Virus record (IMG/VR): IMGVR_UViG_3300034374_002965 | Location: 1 to 25,225 of that record | Origin: a virus | Length of the DNA stretch: 25,225 nt | Reading direction: 5' to 3' (one strand) | Shown: positions 6,051-25,225 of the stretch, piece by piece | Numbering within the stretch: position 1 is the stretch's first letter | How the letters are laid out: every line of letters starts with the position of its first letter | Translations under genes and position numbers: made by a program | Notes under the pieces: model-generated | Seen by the model: only the letters and a program-made list of their open reading frames with translations | What the model was told of the DNA's origin: nothing | Databases searched by the model: none

Positions 6051-6287
6051 TTATGCAGCCTCTCCGGCAGCAATAGCATCATTAAAAGGCGTCATGTCTT
6101 CCGTCGTCCAGATGTCACGGACGATGGTGCCTTTGAGGTGGTCGATATTGCGTTGAAGCACTGTGGGGTCATCTGCGTAGTCGTCAGGCGATGCAAGCAC
6201 AGCGTTAATGAGGTTTACAGAGTCCATTGACGCACTGTAATGCCGTGCAATATCTTCCGCTGTCATTTCGATTTCTTCTTCGGACAT
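6051..6287 (-). CDS. Small acidic hypothetical protein (78 aa)
   Basis: I start this at ATG 6287, which sits eight bases after an AAGGAG site. The frame is open to a further ATG at 6323, but that start would overlap the preceding gene and has no comparable site. The product is acidic and apparently helical (MSEEEIEMTAEDIARHYSAS), with a later block TVLQRNIDHLKGTIVRDIW. It forms a pair with the 73-residue gene just upstream, between the fibre and the gp10-like protein. No enzymatic motif is visible; it may be a fibre-assembly or attachment factor, but this is only positional inference. Confidence 0.72.
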   Translation of the reverse strand: MSEEEIEMTAEDIARHYSASMDSVNLINAVLASPDDYADDPTVLQRNIDHLKGTIVRDIWTTEDMTPFNDAIAAGEAA

Positions 6288-6291
6288 AATA

Positions 6292-6513
6292 TTACTCCTT
6301 TTCTGCGGGGGCTGGGTTTTCAAGCGAGTTAGTCAACAAACCAACAAAGGTGTCCCGGCAGACTTGCAACTGATCTACGTTGAACCGAGCGGCCATCAGC
6401 TTTTGGTCCAGATCAGCCAAGTGGTTGACCATAACAATCTCTTGCTCGTTTAGGTCTTGGACATTGTAAGGCTTGTCGTTGACCGTAATGGTTTTTTTCT
6501 CGTCGTCAGTCAT
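6292..6513 (-). CDS. Small acidic protein, DUF6447-like (73 aa)
   Basis: A 73-residue product with a short beta-like start (KTITVNDKPYNVQDL) followed by a helical stretch (EQEIVMVNHLADLDQKLMAARF) and a Pro/Glu-rich tail. This layout resembles the DUF6447 small proteins I recall from marine phages; a profile search was not possible. Its ATG lies inside the last codons of the fibre gene (8-base overlap), which implies translational coupling to fibre synthesis. That pairing makes a role as fibre-assembly chaperone or fibre-associated subunit attractive but unproven. Confidence 0.75.
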   Translation of the reverse strand: MTDDEKKTITVNDKPYNVQDLNEQEIVMVNHLADLDQKLMAARFNVDQLQVCRDTFVGLLTNSLENPAPAEKE

Positions 6514-8353
6514 TCAATTTCTCCCTCAGAATGTTAATTTCATCAGACAGTTCTTGGATGGCTCGAACCAAGACTGGGATCAGTTTGCCCGGTGTGGCTT
6601 CAAGCCTGTCTGGATTGGACTTTAATACAAGGTTCATAAGCTCCTCAACGCCAGCATCCTGCTGCGCTTCATCTAATTCTTGAGCAATGAAGCCTGCTTC
6701 CTTCTGGCCAACCTTAGCGCCATCACGCATGTTCCAAGTGAACTCGACTGGGTTCAGCGAGTTAACAAAGTCCAGACCAACAGAAAGGTCTTTGATGTCC
6801 TTCTTGTCTCTGCGATCTGACAGTGCTGTAATGGACGTAACTTGAGCGCGAATAGCTGTAATGCTTGTATTACCGAGTGTAATTTCGTTAGACACATCTG
6901 CTGCGGAGGCGGCTGCATCGTGTCCAATGATGGTGTTATTGCTGCCTGTCGTTAGGACATCACCCGCCTGTACGCCGAGAAGTGTATTGTCCACCCCAGT
7001 CGTCAGTTCGTAACCTGCTCTATAACCAACAGCGACGTTGTAATTGCCACTACTGATATCGTTACCAGCTTGACGGCCAATAGCGATATTGTCCGTTCCA
7101 GTTACAACACCTACGCCGATTGATGAATAGCCGATAGCGATATTATAATTACCCTCAGTTGCGTTGCCTGCTGCATTATAGCCCAAAAAATTATTGTATA
7201 TGCCGCTGGTCAAATCGTTGCCTGCTAGACGACCAATAGCTGTATTGCCCGTTCCAGTCATAACACCTGTGCCAATGGCTTCATGACCTATGGCGATGCC
7301 AAAACTAGCAGTAGTTGCGAACTCCCCTGCTTCGAAGCCCTGAAATATGTTGCCAGTGCCGGTGGTTACGTTAGAGCCTGCTTGAAAGCCCGAAAGAATG
7401 TTGTAATCTCCGCTGGTTAAACCGTAGCCAGCTTGATAACCAATAGCGACATTGTTTGTGCCTGTAAGAACACCTAAGCCAATAGCCTGTCTACCAATAG
7501 CAATATTACTGTCGCCAGTAGTTGCGTTAAGAGCGGCCTGATACCCAATAGCTGTGTTACCGTCACCTGTAGTCAAATCTTGTAGGGCGTTGAAACCCAT
7601 AGCCGTATTAAAAGTACCACCAGCCTCAATGTTAGCAAAGGTGCCGCTACCAAAACCGACGTTTGAGGTGCCGGTAGGATGCGTAGCTTGAATGTCTACA
7701 GTGCCACTTGGCATAGACAACGACGTAATGCCGTCTACGGTCCCCCCGTTGATGTCAGCGGTCGTCAACACAGAAGACGAAATGGTGATTACACCGGAGC
7801 TATCTGCGATGGAGCCTGCGGCGGTGCCGTCCTTAGCTTTTAGGTTGGTAACCTCAATGTTCGTGGTATCCACCGTAGTGGTTGTAATTGCGTCAAAATA
7901 CGCGTTGTTAAAGACGTTTGCCGCTACCGCACCAGAGCCCGCACCATTAAAGAAAACAACGGCGGTCGTTCCCGCAGGAACCTCGTAGTCATTGCTGGAG
8001 TTATAAGTCCCTTGAAACAAGAGTATGCTGCGCGAGCCTGACAGGTTGTTACGAACATACACAATTTTTTCGGCGTCATTCGGAGTAAGCTGAACAAAAA
8101 CGGTGCCCCCCAAATCGCCCCCGTCGCCAAAAATAACCAAACGATTGCGGCCGTTGGAGGCCGCCCCATCGCTAACGGGCAACGTGTTCGGAGAACCGGA
8201 ACTTCCCGTGGCTGCAAGCGTTACAGAAACTTGTCCATCTAATGACGTGTCCACCAGCTCAAAGTTAGTATTGGTCGTGTCGCCCCACGTACCCGACTGC
8301 TCTCCGGTAGCAATTATTTCAATACCGTTGTTAAGCGTATATGTGCTTGGCAT
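6506..8353 (-). CDS. Tail fibre with YadA-like head repeats and C-terminal Peptidase_S74 intramolecular chaperone
   Basis: A 615-residue protein. The N-terminus (NNGIEIIATGEQSGTWGDTT) matches the particle-attachment end I associate with marine phage fibres. Residues about 248-495 are a run of short repeats of the type NTAIGYQAG..LTTG..N, as in trimeric autotransporter (YadA-type) head domains, predicted to form a left-handed beta-roll trimer. Residues about 505-615 are a Peptidase_S74 chaperone: LSDRRDKKDIKDL, GFIAQEL and VLVRAIQEL. The dyad that drives self-cleavage in this family appears to be Ser512 and Lys517 (S followed five residues later by K), so cleavage just before Ser512 should release about 104 residues after trimer folding. 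Role: host recognition. A GAGGTG site precedes ATG 8353. Domain calls are firm; the receptor is unknown. Confidence 0.92.
   Translation of the reverse strand: MPSTYTLNNGIEIIATGEQSGTWGDTTNTNFELVDTSLDGQVSVTLAATGSSGSPNTLPVSDGAASNGRNRLVIFGDGGDLGGTVFVQLTPNDAEKIVYVRNNLSGSRSILLFQGTYNSSNDYEVPAGTTAVVFFNGAGSGAVAANVFNNAYFDAITTTTVDTTNIEVTNLKAKDGTAAGSIADSSGVITISSSVLTTADINGGTVDGITSLSMPSGTVDIQATHPTGTSNVGFGSGTFANIEAGGTFNTAMGFNALQDLTTGDGNTAIGYQAALNATTGDSNIAIGRQAIGLGVLTGTNNVAIGYQAGYGLTSGDYNILSGFQAGSNVTTGTGNIFQGFEAGEFATTASFGIAIGHEAIGTGVMTGTGNTAIGRLAGNDLTSGIYNNFLGYNAAGNATEGNYNIAIGYSSIGVGVVTGTDNIAIGRQAGNDISSGNYNVAVGYRAGYELTTGVDNTLLGVQAGDVLTTGSNNTIIGHDAAASAADVSNEITLGNTSITAIRAQVTSITALSDRRDKKDIKDLSVGLDFVNSLNPVEFTWNMRDGAKVGQKEAGFIAQELDEAQQDAGVEELMNLVLKSNPDRLEATPGKLIPVLVRAIQELSDEINILREKLND
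6869..7612 (-). repeat. YadA-type protein repeat array inside the fibre gene
   Basis: About a dozen degenerate repeats encode residues 248-495 of the fibre. The recurring core is N-x-[AT]-[IL]-G-x-x-A-G followed by L-T-[TS]-G. The repeats are conserved at protein level but diverged in DNA, with unit lengths alternating because of inserted IGxGVxTGT turns. This points to an old, structurally constrained array rather than a recent tandem expansion. Confidence 0.8.
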
Positions 8354-8364
8354 TTTTTAACACC

Positions 8365-8997
8365 TCATGCTGCAATTTGAACCCAGTCGGGGTTTGGGGA
8401 GGGGCTGGCCTCTGAATACCCTGGAGTTTGAACCGGAGTTTCCGCAGAGTACCCCGGAGTTTGAACCGGAGTTTCCTCTGAATACCCCGGAGTTTGAACC
8501 GGAGTTTCCTCACTATACCCCGGATTTTGGTCTGGAACAATCTGACCATACACCAGCACCGGATTCACGAGCCCGTCGGCGGTTAGGCCTGTGACGGAAA
8601 CGTCCGCGTTTGCCGCAGCAGTTGCCAAGCCAACCTGACCCTGAGACTCGCTAGGTGCTGTTACGTTTACCGTAACAAAAATACCCACCGAAACAGAACC
8701 TACAGAGCCGGTGGAAGCTACACCCGTAACAGCGGTAATAGCATCCGCCGTGACCGAAACAGAACCTACAGAGCCGGTGGAAGCTACACCCGTAACAGCG
8801 GTAATAGCGTCCGCCGTGACCGAAACAGAACCTACAGAGCCGGTGGAAGCTACACCCGTAACAGCGGTAATAGCGTCCGCCGTGACCGAAACAGAACCTA
8901 CAGAGCCGGTGGCTTTAGGTAGGTCCGTTTGGCCCCAAGGCATTGCGCCCCAGCCAGAGCGGCCCCAGCCGCCGAGGGGGACGACAATGCCCGACAT
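8365..8997 (-). CDS. Repeat-built putative virion surface/tail protein (210 aa)
   Basis: The ATG at 8997 shares its A with the stop of the preceding gene (TAATG). The N-terminus is Gly/Trp-rich (GGWGRSGWGAMPWGQ). Residues about 29-105 consist of three nearly identical 22-residue units (TGSVGSVSVTADAITAVTGV...) plus a partial fourth, alternating Val, Thr and Ser as expected for beta strands. The C-terminal part has four 11-residue units of TPGYSEETPVQ type, rich in Pro and Glu, probably extended. No catalytic motif is visible. Its place immediately before the fibre gene suggests a tail or fibre-base component. Weak copy-to-copy divergence in DNA implies recent expansion. The function is inferred from position only. 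Confidence 0.8.
   Translation of the reverse strand: MSGIVVPLGGWGRSGWGAMPWGQTDLPKATGSVGSVSVTADAITAVTGVASTGSVGSVSVTADAITAVTGVASTGSVGSVSVTADAITAVTGVASTGSVGSVSVGIFVTVNVTAPSESQGQVGLATAAANADVSVTGLTADGLVNPVLVYGQIVPDQNPGYSEETPVQTPGYSEETPVQTPGYSAETPVQTPGYSEASPSPNPDWVQIAA
8411..8531 (-). repeat. 33-bp tandem repeat, about 3.5 copies
   Basis: The plus-strand word GGAGTTTGAACCGGAGTTT begins at 8423, 8456 and 8489, with a degenerate fourth copy at 8522, giving an exact 33-base period. Each unit encodes 11 residues of the TPGYSEETPVQ type, so copy-number change keeps the frame. Confidence 0.9.
8687..8912 (-). repeat. 66-bp tandem repeat, 3.4 copies, nearly perfect
   Basis: Units begin with ACCGAAACAGAACCTACAGA on the plus strand at 8687, 8753, 8819 and 8885, an exact 66-base period, and the last copy is cut after 28 bases. 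The only difference I see between full copies is one A/G change at 8743. The unit is 22 codons, so gain or loss of copies is frame-neutral. Near identity at synonymous positions indicates recent duplication or ongoing homogenisation. Confidence 0.95.
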
Positions 8998-17933: not shown

Positions 17934-18395
17934 TTACAGATGATGAATGTCTTCGGGATCAAGAATTGACGCTAGAATTTCGTCATCGTTTAAGATGCGA
18001 ACTTCCCCACCATCAATTTGAAAACGAGAGCCCGCATAACGAGCAAACATGACCCATTGCTTCTCTTGGCACCACGGCCCGTCTGGGAATTTTTCTGAGT
18101 CTTTGTAAGCCAAAGGACCCAGCTTTAGGACGTATCCCGCCTGCGTGGATATTTGGCTTTTTTCCTGAACAGAGCCCGGAAGGAAAACACCGCCCGCCGT
18201 TTTAGACGTTCCTTGGTACGGAAGAATTAAAATGCGCCACCCCGTGGGATTAGGCATTCTGTCCAGCAGGTTTTCGCCTATTTTGTCGGGGTCAAGACGA
18301 GGGCTTTCCACATAAACGTCCGCCAAACTGGCTTTTTTGGGGACTTCCGGTTCGGAAAGCCTTTTTGCTATTTTGGTTAAATCTATTTTAGTCAT
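17934..18395 (-). CDS. Phage GroES-like co-chaperonin (Cpn10)
   Basis: Residues about 50-145 follow the Cpn10 fold: PTGWRILILPY, a loop with TSKTAGGVFLP at about 63-73 matching the GroES mobile-loop region and the GGIVLP signature, then AGYVLKLGPLAY, WVMFARYAGSRFQIDGGE and RILNDDEILASI, corresponding to the conserved GroES end. The N-terminal 45 residues are an extra hydrophilic extension, so the protein is longer than GroES (about 97). T4 gp31 is the known precedent: it replaces GroES on host GroEL so that the coat protein fits the cage. The location directly before scaffold and coat genes supports the same job. The ATG overlaps the preceding small gene by 8 bases. Confidence 0.85.
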   Translation of the reverse strand: MTKIDLTKIAKRLSEPEVPKKASLADVYVESPRLDPDKIGENLLDRMPNPTGWRILILPYQGTSKTAGGVFLPGSVQEKSQISTQAGYVLKLGPLAYKDSEKFPDGPWCQEKQWVMFARYAGSRFQIDGGEVRILNDDEILASILDPEDIHHL

Positions 18396-18687: not shown

Positions 18688-19149
18688 TTAACTGTTTTCG
18701 AAATGGGGGCCATCAAGGAAGGGCCTACGACCTTCTGACCTTCGCAGGTCAATGTAAGCGTTCATAGCATCTTCCATAGTACCTTCGTGCAGACGTATAT
18801 CCCGAACCTGCCACGCACCGCCCCAACGAATAGCAACCCCCGTCTCCTTAGCGGCCTGTTTCATGGCGTCCGCAAGCTCATCGTACGCCGACATCTCCCA
18901 ACAAACTCGTCCCGATAGATAAGCCACGAGGTCTACAGCATTACCCGACAAGTGCTTAGAGTTCATGGTCTGACTTAAGCCTCGCGCCACGAGCTCTTTC
19001 TGGCGCTCGATGGACCGTTTGCCCTCGGTAACACCAAAATCAATGGGGCTTAGTTCCAAAGCGCGCTTTACCGTGTCCGAAAGTTCCGGCTTAACCCCCA
19101 ACAAACGTTCCCTAGAACGCGCAGAAAGTACCCAATTGTGACTGCTCAT
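18688..19149 (-). CDS. Endolysin, M15-type L-Ala-D-Glu / D-Ala-D-Ala peptidase
   Basis: A 153-residue single-domain enzyme that cleaves peptidoglycan stem peptides at lysis. The zinc site is visible: His66 and Asp73 in SKHLSGNAVDL and His149 in LDGPHFE, with Asp146 three residues before the last His as the probable catalytic acid. H66, D73 and a final D-x-x-H match the layout of the T5 endolysin. GVTEGKRSIERQKELVARGL is the usual first substrate-site segment of this family. There is no signal peptide, so export depends on the holin encoded just upstream. Its ATG overlaps the stop of a 47-residue gene (ATGA). The family and metal ligands are well supported. Confidence 0.9.
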   Translation of the reverse strand: MSSHNWVLSARSRERLLGVKPELSDTVKRALELSPIDFGVTEGKRSIERQKELVARGLSQTMNSKHLSGNAVDLVAYLSGRVCWEMSAYDELADAMKQAAKETGVAIRWGGAWQVRDIRLHEGTMEDAMNAYIDLRRSEGRRPFLDGPHFENS

Positions 19150-19289
19150 CGACCCTGCCCTCTATATTTTTTCCAATTTTTTCTTTTGTGTTTGTTCTTA
19201 GGGAAAGAACGGAAACTTTGACCAATGCTGGTGACGTGTTTGATCTTCGGCGGACGGGCCAAAGAACCAATTGATGCTCTGGCAACCAT
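19146..19289 (-). CDS. Small basic protein between holin and endolysin (47 aa)
   Basis: The frame starts at ATG 19289, sharing its A with the holin stop (TAATG), and ends with TGA inside the endolysin start (ATGA at 19149-19146). The product has 47 residues and is strongly basic (KNKHKRKNWKKYRGQGR at the end), with no membrane segment. I recall similar peptides ending in KxxxKKYRGQGR in marine phages. The perfect fit on both sides makes a real gene likely. It might help lysis timing or bind nucleic acid or lipid; neither is shown. It is not a spanin by sequence: there is no lipobox and no transmembrane helix. Confidence 0.7.
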   Translation of the reverse strand: MVARASIGSLARPPKIKHVTSIGQSFRSFPKNKHKRKNWKKYRGQGR

Positions 19290-19672
19290 TAGCTAATAAC
19301 CTTACTGTCAGTTTTCTTGACCTTGTCGAAGCTCCTCATTCCCCCAATTCCGAGCATGCCTAGCAGAAGTGGCATCATCACGGACATATCGGCCTGTGGA
19401 ATCGACACTCCAAACCCCGCAGCAATGGGGCTGACCAAAAAATTCACCGCCATGCCCAGAACCGCCACATAGCCAGCCAACGGTCGCCAAGACGATTGAA
19501 ACCAGTTGCCCTTTGCATCTGCCTTAAGCACCTCAATTTGCTGGAGAGTTACCTCCTGGGCATGTCGTTGTGACATCGTAGCCAGTTGATGCGCGATTTT
19601 GGCTTTAGTGTCGGCGTCAGGAATTACTTTGTCCAACAATCCGGTAATTGGACCGATTAGTGCTGACAGCAT
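19289..19672 (-). CDS. Holin, GTA-type three-helix family
   Basis: A 127-residue protein with an amphipathic N-terminus (MLSALIGPITGLLDKVI), a charged helical middle (QRHAQEVTLQQIEVLKADAK) and two clear hydrophobic segments at about 64-90 and 97-112. The segment WFQSSWRPLAGYVAVLGMAV is the hallmark W-x-x-S-W-R-P stretch of the 3-TM holins linked to gene-transfer-agent release. It forms lethal lesions in the inner membrane that release or activate the endolysin. An AGGAG site precedes the ATG, and the stop overlaps the next gene. The lysis context (endolysin one gene downstream) agrees. Confidence 0.88.
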   Translation of the reverse strand: MLSALIGPITGLLDKVIPDADTKAKIAHQLATMSQRHAQEVTLQQIEVLKADAKGNWFQSSWRPLAGYVAVLGMAVNFLVSPIAAGFGVSIPQADMSVMMPLLLGMLGIGGMRSFDKVKKTDSKVIS

Positions 19673-20260: not shown

Positions 20261-22722
20261 TGTGGCATACCTCCGCCATCGGGTTGTTGTTTCAAAATTT
20301 CTCGTTCCATTGCCGCATCAATGCGGGCCTGCGTTTGACGCTCTTGCGCTGCAATCCGCTCTTGGAACTGTTGTGCCCGCATTTCGGCGGTCTGCTGATC
20401 TAATTGTAACTTTCCTTGGTCAATTTGCGCATCCACCTGATCGGACTGCGCCCGAAGTTCCAGCTCTTTCTCCTTAAGCTGAACCACAGGGTCCGGAGCA
20501 CCAGCCCCGGAAAGCTGACCAGAAAGTTCTTTTACTTGCTGCAAACCTTCTGCAATAAATTGAGCCGTTTGCTGCTCTATCTGTAGCATCTCGTCTTCGT
20601 TTGCAACCCGACCACCGCGCTGTTGAACTTGCTGCATGTACTGAGACACAGACCTCTCGCTCGCTGCAATCCGCACATGCTCCATAATATGTTTCTGTAG
20701 GCTCATAGCTATCGGGGGTGCTTGACCAACCAAGGCACTGCTCGCAAAAATTAAATGCGAGGTGATGTGAGCTTGGTGGTTCTGACCCTCAAAAGCTTTC
20801 AATGGCAACATATCTAAAGCGTTGATGTTTTCTTGAGCCGGGTCCAACGGTTCGGGAACTTCCGCCGGAATAGCTTTCATTAAACGATCTACGTCCGATA
20901 CGCCTAAAGCCTCATACATGTCACGGTATACTTCGTGCATGTTGTGAATTTCCGGGGCCTGTGACGCCAATTGCATCTTTGTCTGAGCTAAGACAATTCT
21001 TTGAGCCTGACTAAACACATTTGGGTTGCTTACCGGAATGACGTCTACACGATCATCAAAGTCTTGAGCCATAACCGATTGGTCGTCGCCCGCCACGGCG
21101 TAAGGATATTCTTGCGGTAGACTTTCCGACATTACACGAGCCAAAATCTTAAACTCTTGGCGCATAGCATAGTGAAGGCGCTTGTGAACGGCGCTCATGA
21201 CCCTAGAGCCCTGCTCTAGCATCGCCATGGTAGTACCTACCGCAGCTTGATCGTTGCCGTCCCCAACCTTTAAATCGGTTATCGTAGCAAACCGCTGACC
21301 AGCTTGAACCACAAAACCTAAAAGATTGAATAACGTCTGATCCGGACCCTTAAACGGGAGCGGCATCAAACTATCCCGGATCGCGCCCCCCGGAGCATCC
21401 ACGTCCCGGAACTCTCCGGGCTGAAGCGGGTCGTCATCGTCCCGGATGCGCAAACCACGCGCTTTAAAGCCCGCAGGGAGGTTGGAAAGGGTTCCAGCAT
21501 CAATTAACTGACGAAGCGCCGACGTTGCCGTTCTTGACAAACCACCAATCGTGTGAATTAGGCCCAGTCCGTAAAAGCCGAAGCCCGGAAGGAACTTATA
21601 ATGCGTGAAATACTGTATTTTACGCTTTAAAGTGTCATCTTCTTGGTAGTTCCGTCGAACAGACAGCACCTCGCCGTTATCCTGAGACAACGTTACGATG
21701 TACGGAACTTTAATTCCAGTGGGTTCGCCGTCTTCGTCAAGGTCTTCGTAACCTTCCAAGTCTAAATCGACATGACACTCCAAAAGTGTGCAGTCGTAAT
21801 CTACTTGATTAGGCTCAAAACCCTCAATTCTATCAATTTCTTGACCCACGCCTGAAGTGTTTTGCTGTGCAGGACTTACTTCAACGTCACGATAGAAACC
21901 CGCAACTTGGTTTTTACGCAAATCGTTCAAAGACATTCGAACAACCTGCGTAATGTTAGGACATGTATCCAAATCAGACGTCTCGTAAGGAACGACAAGG
22001 TCCTCAGACGGGACAAATTTGGAAACCGCGCGACCTAACGTTTCGTCATAATACGTCTTTTTAAATGTTGAACCCGCCAAAGGCAGGTAGAACAACATTT
22101 GATCCATATCAGGCGTATATTCTTCCATCACACTCGTGATGTAATAGTTCATGAAAGTCTTTACGCGCCTAGCTTGCGCAACTTTCTCACGAGTTTCGTT
22201 ACCCATGACCACAGTTCGGACAGGGCCCGAAGAAGGCAACAATTCGTTAAACGCTTGAGCTTGAAATTGCGTCGCAGCTTCCGCCAAAAGCGGATGAGTG
22301 ACGCCCGAAGCACCTCTAAACGGTTGCGTACGCTCGTTGTAAGTGAAACCCAGAAGGTCCAAACCATCCGCATAAGCTTCCTCCCATTCCTGCCTGCTCG
22401 CCTTATTAGAATCAAAATCCCCAGAAAGCTCGCTGGAAATACGACCTAGTTCACGCTCCGGGATTTCTTCTGCCAAGTTGGCGTAGAAATCATCGGATTC
22501 GCCCCGCTCGTCCGACGGATCAAAGTCCACCTCGACGCTGCCGTCTTCTAAAGCCACAACCTCAACGGGGCCTTCGTCTTCGTCCTCTAATTCATACGAA
22601 GCGTTTTCCAAAGTCCCCGGAAGCTCCAATTCGATTTCGGCCGCTAGGACGTCTGGGTCCAACTCAGAAGGAACACTGGTTTCCATTAAGCTGCTTTGAA
22701 AGCCGTTACGCTCTTCAGCCAT
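20257..22722 (-). CDS. Portal protein (P22-like, head-tail connector)
   Basis: An 821-residue protein. The first 85 residues are very acidic (Glu/Asp-rich), then comes the portal core with DGLDLLGFTYNERTQPFRGA followed by SGVTHPLLAEAATQF, MNYYITSVMEEYTPDMDQML, LPLAGSTFKKTYYD and VPSEDLVVPYETSDLDTCPN. These blocks match the portals I know from marine podoviruses related to P22 portal. The C-terminal 85 residues are Gln/Glu-rich coiled coil (LKEKELELRAQSDQVDAQID), equivalent in place to the barrel helix of P22. It forms the dodecameric DNA entry ring, docks the terminase and later the adaptors. AGGAGG precedes the ATG, which overlaps the preceding stop (TAATG). Confidence 0.92.
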   Translation of the reverse strand: MAEERNGFQSSLMETSVPSELDPDVLAAEIELELPGTLENASYELEDEDEGPVEVVALEDGSVEVDFDPSDERGESDDFYANLAEEIPERELGRISSELSGDFDSNKASRQEWEEAYADGLDLLGFTYNERTQPFRGASGVTHPLLAEAATQFQAQAFNELLPSSGPVRTVVMGNETREKVAQARRVKTFMNYYITSVMEEYTPDMDQMLFYLPLAGSTFKKTYYDETLGRAVSKFVPSEDLVVPYETSDLDTCPNITQVVRMSLNDLRKNQVAGFYRDVEVSPAQQNTSGVGQEIDRIEGFEPNQVDYDCTLLECHVDLDLEGYEDLDEDGEPTGIKVPYIVTLSQDNGEVLSVRRNYQEDDTLKRKIQYFTHYKFLPGFGFYGLGLIHTIGGLSRTATSALRQLIDAGTLSNLPAGFKARGLRIRDDDDPLQPGEFRDVDAPGGAIRDSLMPLPFKGPDQTLFNLLGFVVQAGQRFATITDLKVGDGNDQAAVGTTMAMLEQGSRVMSAVHKRLHYAMRQEFKILARVMSESLPQEYPYAVAGDDQSVMAQDFDDRVDVIPVSNPNVFSQAQRIVLAQTKMQLASQAPEIHNMHEVYRDMYEALGVSDVDRLMKAIPAEVPEPLDPAQENINALDMLPLKAFEGQNHQAHITSHLIFASSALVGQAPPIAMSLQKHIMEHVRIAASERSVSQYMQQVQQRGGRVANEDEMLQIEQQTAQFIAEGLQQVKELSGQLSGAGAPDPVVQLKEKELELRAQSDQVDAQIDQGKLQLDQQTAEMRAQQFQERIAAQERQTQARIDAAMEREILKQQPDGGGMPQ

Positions 22723-25225
22723 TAGTTTCTTCCTCCTAAGATCGACCGAAATGTATCCCTAAAGCGCCGGAACCGGCTCACAGGGTTTTTCGTGTCATCA
22801 TCATTACCCGTAGAGTCCATACCAACAAAATGCGGTTCCGCACGAAGAACATTTTTCGTGTCATCATTATTACCCGTAGAGTCCATACCAACAAAATTTG
22901 TTTTTGGCCTGCGCTCAAAATCTTGTACTCCAAGGGCACTATCAATTTGAGCTTTGGTATAACCCTCCGAATTTAACGCAGACCTTATCTGAGTTGCGGC
23001 TTCTTCTTCCGCTCGACGCACAAGGTCAACAAGAGGTTGATATTCACGGTCTTTATATTTTTCAGGCAAATCCGCGACATTCCCGGTTTCCGACAAAGCC
23101 ACGGCAGCCTTCATTTCCCCACTACTTAAATCGAGCATCTTTGAGTACAGGTCCAATTGTTTTTGGTTACGAGGGTCCATCCTACCATCGTCTACAAGAC
23201 TTGATGCGTCATATATATTTATCAAAAACCGGTGTTCGTTTTTTCCGCCGCGGCCTCTTTCTCCTAGCACATTTGTAGTCAAAAGAGTTCCTAGCGCCGA
23301 ATCTGTCCCCGTTGTTTCGATATAATCAGATAAACTGCTGCGAGCGCGAGTTAAAAAAGCATGTTCCAGTTCATGTCGAGACACTCTAGCCACGCGTTCA
23401 TTGTTTGCTCGTGCGGCGTCACTGAGACCCTCTAAAGTATCTCCAGACGCTTCAGCCTGGGTTCTTCCGTATCGGTCTGTAATGTTGTTGACCAATACCC
23501 CTTTAACTCTGGGGTCCACAGTTTCTGGATTAAACCTGTCTCCCCCGTACATCAAACCTTGCAAGCCTTCATGTACAGGTATCGGAAAGCGCCCTTCAAA
23601 AACTGAACTATCATAAAGAGGCTTTCCCGAATCGAGATGGCGAAGGCGACCTCGGTATGCTTGATCGAGAAGGGTGGTACCCGAAAGACGACGTAATGTT
23701 ACGGGACGAACGTCAAGATCATCCGACAATAAAGGGATTTCAGTTCCTGAGCCGCCTAATCCCGGTCTTGTCTGACGCATCATAAGTTCCGCAGAAGCTA
23801 AAGGACTACCTTCGATGTGCGGAGCCACAGTGTGAGCAAACTCGTCGTCCGCTAGACGAATTAAATCTCGACGCGGAACGCGTGAGATACCACCTAAACG
23901 GGGCGGCCTGTCCGGGGGCAACCGCTGAGATCGAACAGAACCCCCGTCTGCAAAGGTCTCTATAGAAAACAAGTCCGAGGCGGACCGTAATAACCGGAGG
24001 AAATAGGTTTCTTCTTCCGGACCAAAAGCGGCCTCAATATGAGCTTGGGAAAAACCGTCTCTTTTTAAGACAGGTTTAATCTGTTCCATAAGCTCTTCTT
24101 CCGCTTTTTTTAACTCCTTAGCCGCCTCTAAACTGATCTCCTTTACTTGATACTTTTCGGGTATCCTCAAGCCCTTGTCTTCTTCCGACGAGCGATCCCT
24201 AGCTAATTCAATCCCGGCCTGCATGGCGGAAACACTGTTTCCGTTTAGGAAGCCCCAAGTATCTAGCTGTTCTTCGTCCGTCGGGTCTAAACTACCCGAT
24301 TTAATTGCGGAGGCTACGTCTAAAATATTTATGTACGCCAAGTGATCGTTAGAAACGCTGGGCCTCTTATCTGGATTTGGTTGCAAAATCCTGCCCAAGG
24401 CCGAATCTTTACCTTTTACGCTTACATAAGGAGGAGAGTTGGGATCGTACGCAGTCGTTCTAAGGTGTGTTAATCCAGCATGAATTAGTTCGTGTTGCAG
24501 CGTTTCCGCTTGAGAAACGGTTTTAACTTCTGAAGATATTTGTCCCGTATCCGGGTCTCTGTGGTATTTTTCTACGAAAGGGGGAGCGGTCTGATTAAGA
24601 AGTATTCCGGTTTCAGACCCGGTCAACGATTTGGGTGTTGGAAAGTTCGCTCCGCGGACACCGGGTGCCAACCGAGCCTGAAGTTCGGCTAGGCTTAAGC
24701 CGCGGTTACGCAACCCACCCAAATAGTAATTTTGGCGCACGTCGTTTCCGTCTTTTATGACCGGACGTACGTTTAAAAAGTCCGAAATACTAGTCGGCTC
24801 GTTGTTCGGGGAAAATTCTTCACCCTCGTAAGCTCCCGGATTGGCCGTGCGACGCAAAAGCTCCATACGTGCAATGGGGTTTGTAATGTAAGGGTCAACC
24901 GTATGAACAAACTCATTATCCGCCATACGAACTAAATCGGGGCTCGGCGAAACTTCTTGAACACCACCTAAAAGGGGCGGCCTGCGAGGGGGCAACCGCT
25001 GAGATCGAACAGAACCCCCGTCTGCAAAGGTCCTTATCGGATCGCTCGAAGAATTAAGAATGCGACTAGCTTGATCCAAAACTTGTGGGGACGCGTTCCG
25101 GCCCAGAAGCTTACGGGCTACCGCGTCGTCCCGACGGTCCATGGACCCTAAACGAGCGGCCATAAAGTCCGGGAAGGTGCCCGCATCTCTAAACTCACGG
25201 GCCGCGGACAAACCTACAACTCCGC
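22722..25225 (-). CDS. Large protein with two diverged HExxH-containing domains; N-terminus probably beyond window
   Basis: The frame is open to the right edge. A TTG at 25211, with GGAG eight bases before it, gives 829 residues, but the text before it (GVVGL) reads as coding, so the gene is probably 5'-truncated. Two related domains start with FADGGSVRSQRLPP at residues about 62 and 420. Each has an [AD][ND]EF[VA]HTV segment (98-104, 455-461), HExxH (HELIH 240-244, HELEH 613-617), DSALG, then N-[DE]-H about 48 residues on (290, 660) and a similar helical tail. HExxH and a later His suggest a zincin-like metal site, unproven. The end has two FVGMDSTGN repeats. It sits directly before the portal where a terminase might be expected. 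I do not recognise the family. Confidence 0.8.
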   Translation of the reverse strand, partial: GVVGLSAAREFRDAGTFPDFMAARLGSMDRRDDAVARKLLGRNASPQVLDQASRILNSSSDPIRTFADGGSVRSQRLPPRRPPLLGGVQEVSPSPDLVRMADNEFVHTVDPYITNPIARMELLRRTANPGAYEGEEFSPNNEPTSISDFLNVRPVIKDGNDVRQNYYLGGLRNRGLSLAELQARLAPGVRGANFPTPKSLTGSETGILLNQTAPPFVEKYHRDPDTGQISSEVKTVSQAETLQHELIHAGLTHLRTTAYDPNSPPYVSVKGKDSALGRILQPNPDKRPSVSNDHLAYINILDVASAIKSGSLDPTDEEQLDTWGFLNGNSVSAMQAGIELARDRSSEEDKGLRIPEKYQVKEISLEAAKELKKAEEELMEQIKPVLKRDGFSQAHIEAAFGPEEETYFLRLLRSASDLFSIETFADGGSVRSQRLPPDRPPRLGGISRVPRRDLIRLADDEFAHTVAPHIEGSPLASAELMMRQTRPGLGGSGTEIPLLSDDLDVRPVTLRRLSGTTLLDQAYRGRLRHLDSGKPLYDSSVFEGRFPIPVHEGLQGLMYGGDRFNPETVDPRVKGVLVNNITDRYGRTQAEASGDTLEGLSDAARANNERVARVSRHELEHAFLTRARSSLSDYIETTGTDSALGTLLTTNVLGERGRGGKNEHRFLINIYDASSLVDDGRMDPRNQKQLDLYSKMLDLSSGEMKAAVALSETGNVADLPEKYKDREYQPLVDLVRRAEEEAATQIRSALNSEGYTKAQIDSALGVQDFERRPKTNFVGMDSTGNNDDTKNVLRAEPHFVGMDSTGNDDDTKNPVSRFRRFRDTFRSILGGRN
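22786..22897 (-). repeat. 46-bp direct repeat pair, 66-bp period, at the end of the HExxH gene
   Basis: Copies at 22786-22831 and 22852-22897 differ at one base (C versus T). They share TTTTTCGTGTCATCAT, then TACCCGTAGAGTCCATACCA. They encode the two FVGMDSTGN[ND]DDTKN units near the C-terminus of the protein. Confidence 0.92.
23890..23958 (-). repeat. Copy 1 of a 69-bp in-gene direct repeat
   Basis: It matches 24964-25032 with four mismatches, and its last 45 bases (23914-23958) are identical to 24988-25032. It encodes the FADGGSVRSQRLPP start of the second HExxH domain. The distance between copies is 1074 bases, a whole number of codons (358). Confidence 0.93.
24964..25032 (-). repeat. Copy 2 of the 69-bp in-gene direct repeat
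   Basis: It is the partner of 23890-23958 and encodes the FADGGSVRSQRLPP start of the first HExxH domain. The surrounding domain sequences are much more diverged than these 69 bases. Confidence 0.93.

Follow-up and report, generated by a model that had tools for sequence, protein, structure and literature searches.

A tail fibre gene on the minus strand of the IMG/VR virus record IMGVR_UViG_3300034374_002965, a linear sequence of 25,225 bases analysed here over its whole length as the window, encodes a protein that probably combines a presumed virion anchor, a repeat array folded as a left-handed beta-roll, a short connector, and a C-terminal Peptidase S74 chaperone that cleaves itself off. 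The new elements are the sharply bounded hypervariable array and a linked small gene. The fibre is divided as follows.

6506..8353, minus strand: tail fibre gene (open frame; Pfam S74; PHROG tail and virion matches)
7874..8353, minus strand: residues 1-160, N-terminal domain specific to the lineage and presumed virion anchor (phrog_31104; few relatives)
7613..7873, minus strand: residues 161-247, linker with a first weak repeat unit at 231 (92-98% identical in contigs L001, L003, L004, and L005)
6914..7612, minus strand: residues 248-480, array of 17-18-residue units, predicted left-handed parallel beta-roll (regular-expression chain; model)
6821..6913, minus strand: residues 481-511, connector, with the predicted mature C-terminal tip at 489-511 (column entropy)
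6848..6850, minus strand: Arg502, candidate counterpart of an inter-subunit Arg folding sensor (conservation and T5 analogy)
6509..6820, minus strand: residues 512-615, Peptidase_S74 intramolecular chaperone (PF13884; dyad kept)

The open reading frame (ORF), which a first-pass annotation of this DNA had already called a fibre gene with exactly these ends, reads from an ATG through 615 residues to a stop. A frameshifted or pseudogene fibre was considered and rejected, since the frame is intact and contains no internal stop. PHROG searches assigned residues 295-613 to phrog_23837 (E 2.5e-84), a family of virion structural proteins, and the N-terminus to phrog_31104; further stretches matched families of tail spikes and tail fibres. 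An NCBIfam search of the fibre returned no match. In Pfam, PF13884 (Peptidase_S74) covers residues 512-568 with an E-value of 5.8e-14 and 52.6 bits (cut-off 22), and nothing else was matched at E <= 0.1.

The Ser512/Lys517 pair, which had been proposed to be retained in this domain, is indeed present in TSITAL-SDRRDK-KDIK with the lysine five residues after the serine. Of 141 ORFs matching the S74 profile, 37 were dropped as tail duplicates or for E > 1e-5, which left 104. All 104 keep SDxxxK in the matched stretch, a count slightly biased because one of the six search patterns used for the set spans Lys517; the relatives in this and the following counts are not independent of one another. Ser512, Asp513, Lys517, Gly554, and Ala557 are invariant in an alignment of 101 rows, and contigs L121, L130, L141, and L150 each carry three consecutive S74-bearing ORFs. 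Single-sequence phmmer against the PDB gave two chance-like matches only (E 0.51 and 0.88), so that profiles were needed for the suggested comparison with known S74 structures. A profile of 36 rows over the last 135 residues of the fibre reached 6f45 (E 2e-9), 8jov (E 3.1e-9), MyRF 7dc3 (E 3.1e-8), and the neck appendage 3gud (E 1e-6).

S74 domains are described as cutting before the serine with the lysine acting as a base (PMC3828593), and the S782A substitution is reported to block cleavage of an S74 fibre from Bdellovibrio (PMC10769870). By analogy, self-cleavage of the window fibre is predicted between Leu511 and Ser512, and the S74 domain is very probably removed in maturation. The predicted products are residues 1-511 (51.1 kDa) and residues 512-615 (11.7 kDa), the latter being 104 residues as computed from the sequence, which matches the size of the released fragment anticipated earlier. 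Cleavage in phage T5 is reported to need correct trimers, sensed via an Arg of the neighbouring chain (PMC4690869), and a dead or non-cleaving S74 domain kept as a permanent tip would be compatible with this dependence, cleavage of the window fibre being predicted only. Considering that Ser, Asp, and Lys are invariant in 101/101 rows, dispensable cleavage would be unexpected, and a permanent S74 tip is very unlikely.

The conclusions on the array and the tip rest on alignment A2 and its model. A2 covers residues 247-615 in 50 rows, namely the window fibre and 49 S74 relatives drawn from the set of 104, mainly among those with the best scores. Arg502, occupied by Arg in 83/101 rows of the larger alignment and 50/50 rows of A2, is a candidate folding sensor by analogy with Arg1250 of T5 (PMC4690869), although it stands at Ser-10 and the T5 residue at Ser-14.

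Upstream of the connector, a regular expression detected a chain of 15 units, each 17 or 18 residues long with a near-invariant Gly, whose starts fall within residues 231-473. As a control, each of 107 S74 ORFs was shuffled once at constant composition, and the longest chain was three. The expression is lenient yet misses some arrays: those of contigs L182 and L183 and of phages CRP-831 and HTVC112P were seen by eye, and that of Venkman was under-counted. In A2, the Asn, Gly, and Ala positions of the unit show mean entropies of 1.23, 0.20, and 1.24 bits, and the exposed-looking positions (the one before Asn, the two after Gly, and those of the next loop) mostly reach 3.0-3.4 bits, a few of them staying at 2.7-2.8.

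The A2 model (residues 247-615; monomer only) has a predicted local distance difference test (pLDDT) score of 83.3 overall and mostly 80-95 in the array. VIA-align of this predicted monomer placed the head of BpaC (7o23) first, with Z 17.7, a root-mean-square deviation (rmsd) of 2.6, 217 aligned residues, and 27% identity, and gave Z 16.0-16.3 for CbpF, 14.3 for EibD, 13.8 for YadA, and 13.7 for BoaA. These heads are left-handed parallel beta-rolls with a near-invariant Gly per layer, the build predicted here. Several results weigh against so precise an assignment. YdcK, presumably a hexapeptide-type protein, scores Z 14.0-14.1 (rmsd 4.6-4.7), level with EibD and above YadA, and the helices of GlmU and LpxD reach about 11-12. 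Foldseek against the PDB gave no match at E <= 0.001, the best being CbpF (2.9e-3) and YadA (0.069), and a profile of array plus S74 matched the CA3 chain 7ar9 over the array with E 0.0019. The scores of YdcK, GlmU, and LpxD together with the 7ar9 match therefore make the exact solenoid type less certain than a left-handed parallel solenoid.

The Pfam family YadA_head (PF05658) is absent from the window protein at E <= 0.1 and appears in 3/50 relatives at E <= 1 (best 0.051). Trimeric autotransporters carry a C-terminal membrane anchor where the window fibre has S74 instead; the anchor barrel (YadA_anchor in Pfam) gave no match at E <= 0.1. The layers of autotransporter heads are 14 residues long (mostly 15 in UspA1) and the units of the window fibre 17-18, while the BpaC head is reported to be acidic (PMC9543794) like the window array with its isoelectric point of 4.05. 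On the model, the array thus appears to work like a YadA-type head roll, and by sequence it is no member of YadA_head. The first-pass annotation had spoken of a YadA-like stalk; its adhesin-style repeats are borne out by the predicted fold, which is that of a beta-roll head and not of a coiled-coil stalk.

Both ends of the fibre are conserved, and the array between them is hypervariable. The near relatives L001, L003, L004, and L005, all metagenome contigs, share neighbour genes with the window at 93-100, 84-98, 86-98, and 86-98% amino acid identity (8, 13, 6, and 8 genes, respectively), and the portal is 99% identical in L003 and L005, L001 being a short record without a portal. Residues 1-160 of the fibre are 100% identical in all four contigs, and the best-match identity of the array falls to 68% in L001, 60% in L003, 57% in L004, and 66% in L005. 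In L003, the only one of the four that reaches S74, the connector (481-511) is 77% and the S74 domain 98% identical. Along the gene, nucleotide identity between the window and L003 is 0.92-1.00 to about nucleotide 816 and 0.83-0.98 from nucleotide 1531. The array bins between them lie at 0.35-0.80 in the two main alignments with one partial bin at 0.91, and in another register nucleotides 825-1277 match L003 at 81%. The comparison of repeat numbers proposed earlier also revealed differences: the L003 fibre has 1,084 residues (1,083 not counting the stop) and 41 units by regular expression against 615 residues and 15 units in the window, and among S74 ORFs with a closed 5' end, 56/85 have an array, with 4 to 60 units.

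That the length difference is a metagenome assembly artefact of tandem repeats gains some room from the origin of all four close relatives as metagenome contigs, three of which end before S74. The window gene, for its part, shows no blastn self-match at E <= 1e-10, and L003 matches itself only in blocks of about 66-77% identity, which are too divergent for easy collapse. Since the arrays differ in sequence as well as in length, assembly collapse is disfavoured, and an artefact is highly improbable.

A diverged phage, L002, displays the complementary pattern. Four of its neighbour genes are 32-64% identical to those of the window and its fibre N-terminus 27%, whereas residues 161-247 are 92%, the array 90%, and the connector plus S74 100% identical. 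Together with the close contigs, this indicates that the C-terminal module is exchanged between anchors, with the array as the hot part.

Cleavage would leave a conserved end on the mature fibre. The first-pass annotation had put the mature C-terminus at about 485-511, which agrees with the tip predicted here (489-511); in A2, mean column entropy is 0.87 bit in this tip, 1.06 in S74, and 2.24 in the array. The conserved tip makes host contact along the repeats plausible, and the sides of the roll as the contact surface are a tentative reading with a fair amount in its favour, if somewhat short of probable. The earlier proposal of receptor contact by the repeats themselves fits this picture of a hypervariable array between conserved ends. 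It stays an inference, since a docking site for a second protein would likewise look like a conserved tip, as in gp37 and gp38 of Salmonella phage S16 (PMC7917993). The array variation could also reflect drift and recombination among repeats. Two small genes downstream of the fibre bear on the docking possibility.

6292..6513, minus strand: g6513, candidate accessory gene, 73 residues, phrog_21153 (8-nucleotide overlap with the fibre 3' end)
6051..6323, minus strand: g6323, candidate partner of beta-roll fibres, ORF of 90 residues of which likely about 78 are translated (recurrence)

g6323 recurs beside beta-roll fibres. The window fibre is matched by 79/50,697 phage records, in none of which a single region covers more than 80% of it. 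Homologues of g6323 occur in 7/50,697 records (E <= 0.01), all of them among these 79 and none in the other 72. Venkman, ctpbd312, CRP-831, and CRP-7 have the gene directly 3' of a beta-roll fibre, CRP-1 has it directly 5', and in HTVC111P and HTVC112P it stands at a distance of one gene; the arrays of the seven were found by regular expression in five and by eye in two. Among 20 viral contigs found by g6323, a set including several contigs from other sets or near-duplicates, 17 have an upstream array ORF by regular expression, L182 and L183 (same fibre) have one by eye, and L178 has only 37 bases upstream. For distinct closed fibres with the same anchor and at least 900 nucleotides downstream (n=21), g6323 lies within 900 nucleotides downstream in 9/9 with an array and 0/12 without, and counting either small gene gives 9/9 versus 4/12 (Fisher p 0.0046, kinship ignored). 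A universal partnership is contradicted by the wider set of S74 ORFs with at least 900 nucleotides downstream (n=88), where g6323 follows 25/63 with an array, 2/22 array-less ORFs, and 0/3 cut at the 5' end. g6323 is therefore a frequent companion and not an obligate one. It is also independent of S74, as the fibres of L168, L180, and CRP-831 end differently.

The window protein of g6323 has no Pfam or PHROG match at E <= 0.01, and 20 family members gave scattered matches only in these databases, the best at 0.01 and 0.0071; the family has no PDB match of weight. XkdW was tried as the identity of the family and not accepted, PF09636 appearing in 1/20 members at E 0.067 and the window's own record having none. 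One Trp is invariant in 20/20 aligned sequences. The g6323 product is possibly a chaperone or a cap.

The rival explanation is that cleavage exposes residues 489-511 as a docking tip for the g6323 or g6513 product, with the array as a shaft whose variation mainly sets length. Besides the conservation of the tip next to a varying array, this accords with the best solved S74 relative, chain A of 6f45, a "long tail fiber distal subunit". 6F45 is tied to S16, whose gp37 is reported to lose a 113-residue S74-type chaperone and thereby expose the docking site of gp38, the real adhesin (PMC7917993), a precedent that speaks against receptor contact by the array. The invariant Trp of g6323, its position adjoining or one gene from a beta-roll fibre in 7/7 named carriers, and the joint movement of g6513 with the fibre C-terminus in L002, where it is 100% identical over 67/73 residues beside the same C-terminal part on another anchor, point the same way. 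Against these stand the 38/63 array S74 ORFs that have at least 900 nucleotides downstream and no g6323 homologue there, and the S74-less array fibres that g6323 accompanies too (L168, L180, CRP-831, and CRP-1). In L165-L167, moreover, the translated core of g6323 is 100% identical despite differing arrays, unlike a variable adhesin, and the g6323 protein lacks a Pfam, PHROG, or PDB match of weight. Docking at the tip is thus a doubtful alternative that retains some weight, and it is compatible with host contact on the array sides, the two not being mutually exclusive.

Under the preferred reading, in which the fibre binds the receptor, residues 1-160 of three chains would attach them to the virion, and the chains would form a trimeric left-handed beta-roll at about 248-480, with trimerisation and folding nucleated by the C-terminal S74 domain. 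After correct packing of the connector, Ser512 as nucleophile and Lys517 as general base would cut the Leu511-Ser512 bond and S74 would be lost. The mature fibre would end in the short conserved connector, and the array would carry host specificity on its sides. If specificity lies in the side faces, these phages would adjust their host range by swapping or re-sizing a beta-roll flanked by two constant ends, an arrangement unlike that of tip-based tailspikes. We know of no receptor identified for these phages; the hypervariable roll among closely related phages hints where such fibres may touch the host, and the recurring small gene offers a handle on the assembly of long beta-roll fibres. A common cassette of several marine phage groups, with a side-binding beta-roll hypervariable in length and sequence, a self-removing S74 domain, a conserved tip, and often an assembling or capping g6323-family protein, is an unlikely generalisation.

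The build of beta-roll plus S74 is neither rare nor new, because the deposited protein gp55 of Methylophilales phage Venkman EXVC282S has it and many S74 ORFs of viral contigs carry arrays (at least four chained units upstream of the Ser in 72/104). In gp55, annotated as a "putative FhaB-like adhesion protein", a unit array runs directly into a similar connector and an S74 domain with SDARDK, and a g6323-type gene lies directly downstream; the match is limited to query residues 219-613, with no related N-terminal domain found. The connector-plus-S74 piece is matched in 36/50,697 phage records. BFVD yielded 118 fold matches at E <= 0.001, and the 50 of the 118 that are listed include Peptidase S74 proteins of Tupanvirus, Gaeavirus, and Edafosvirus.

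Mizuno et al. (2014) described two pelagiphage tail fibres, one with a C-terminal YadA domain of poor read recruitment, and the YadA region was proposed for host recognition (PMC3909814). The legend to their figure 3 names S74 and a YadA-like domain (3S6L_A) for the fibres drawn, be it in one fibre or in separate ones; the N-terminus there is of T7 type (PF03906), whereas that of the window fibre differs and has no Pfam match. A YadA-domain protein of cyanophage S-TIM4 is reported to have gained mutations on passage through less suitable hosts (PMC6224464). The L-shaped fibre pb1 of T5 likewise has a C-terminal chaperone with Ser and Lys five residues apart that is cut before the Ser, but as described it bears a bullet-shaped receptor domain and no beta-roll (PMC4690869). 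S16 gp37 shares an S74-type chaperone with the window fibre, but its exposed tip docks gp38 (PMC7917993) and any partner of the window fibre is a candidate. The Bdellovibrio MAT fibre Bd3182 is similarly a chimeric adhesive trimer ending in S74, although it belongs to a bacterial predator and its tip is described as a trimeric beta-helix (PMC10769870).

Portal and anchor suggest a marine phage akin to the HTVC023P type of pelagiphage. The closest portals are those of Pelagibacter phage HTVC027P (52%), phage DSL-LC04 (51%), and HTVC023P (50%), and identity to Roseobacter phages CRP-901/902 is 41%. Residues 1-160, the presumed virion anchor, match 4/50,697 phage records at E <= 1e-5 (HTVC023P, 023Pt_psg01, CRP-901, and CRP-902), all in tail or tail fibre genes at low identity (31-41%). 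By the shared N-terminal domain and related portal, the fibre is thus of the HTVC023P or CRP-901 type. CRP-902 gp50 has its N-terminus in common with the window fibre but no Pfam S74 at E <= 0.1. The model from the whole-protein alignment A1 has a pLDDT of 65.9, mostly below 55 in the N-terminal part, and A1 put the repeat part of C-terminal rows onto the N-terminus; the model was used solely to conclude that modelling of the N-terminal domain is not reliable. Model confidence is also low for the linker (161-247).

Several other minus-strand genes of the window were noted. The gene directly upstream of the fibre (8365-8997), 86% identical to its counterparts in L004/L005, contains two tandem repeats, one of 66 bp (3.4 copies, 99%) and one of 33 bp (3.5 copies, 89%). 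A GroES-type co-chaperonin gene (PF00166, E 1e-9) lies at 17934-18395, and CRP-902 likewise has an annotated GroES. The 829-residue ORF at 22722-25211 shows by eye two FADGGSVRSQRLPP blocks, an apparent internal duplication, and towards its end a repeated FVGMDSTGN motif. An M15-type peptidase (PF13539) at 18688-19149 and a gene transfer agent (GTA)-type holin with three transmembrane segments (PF11351) at 19289-19672 likely form a lysis pair.

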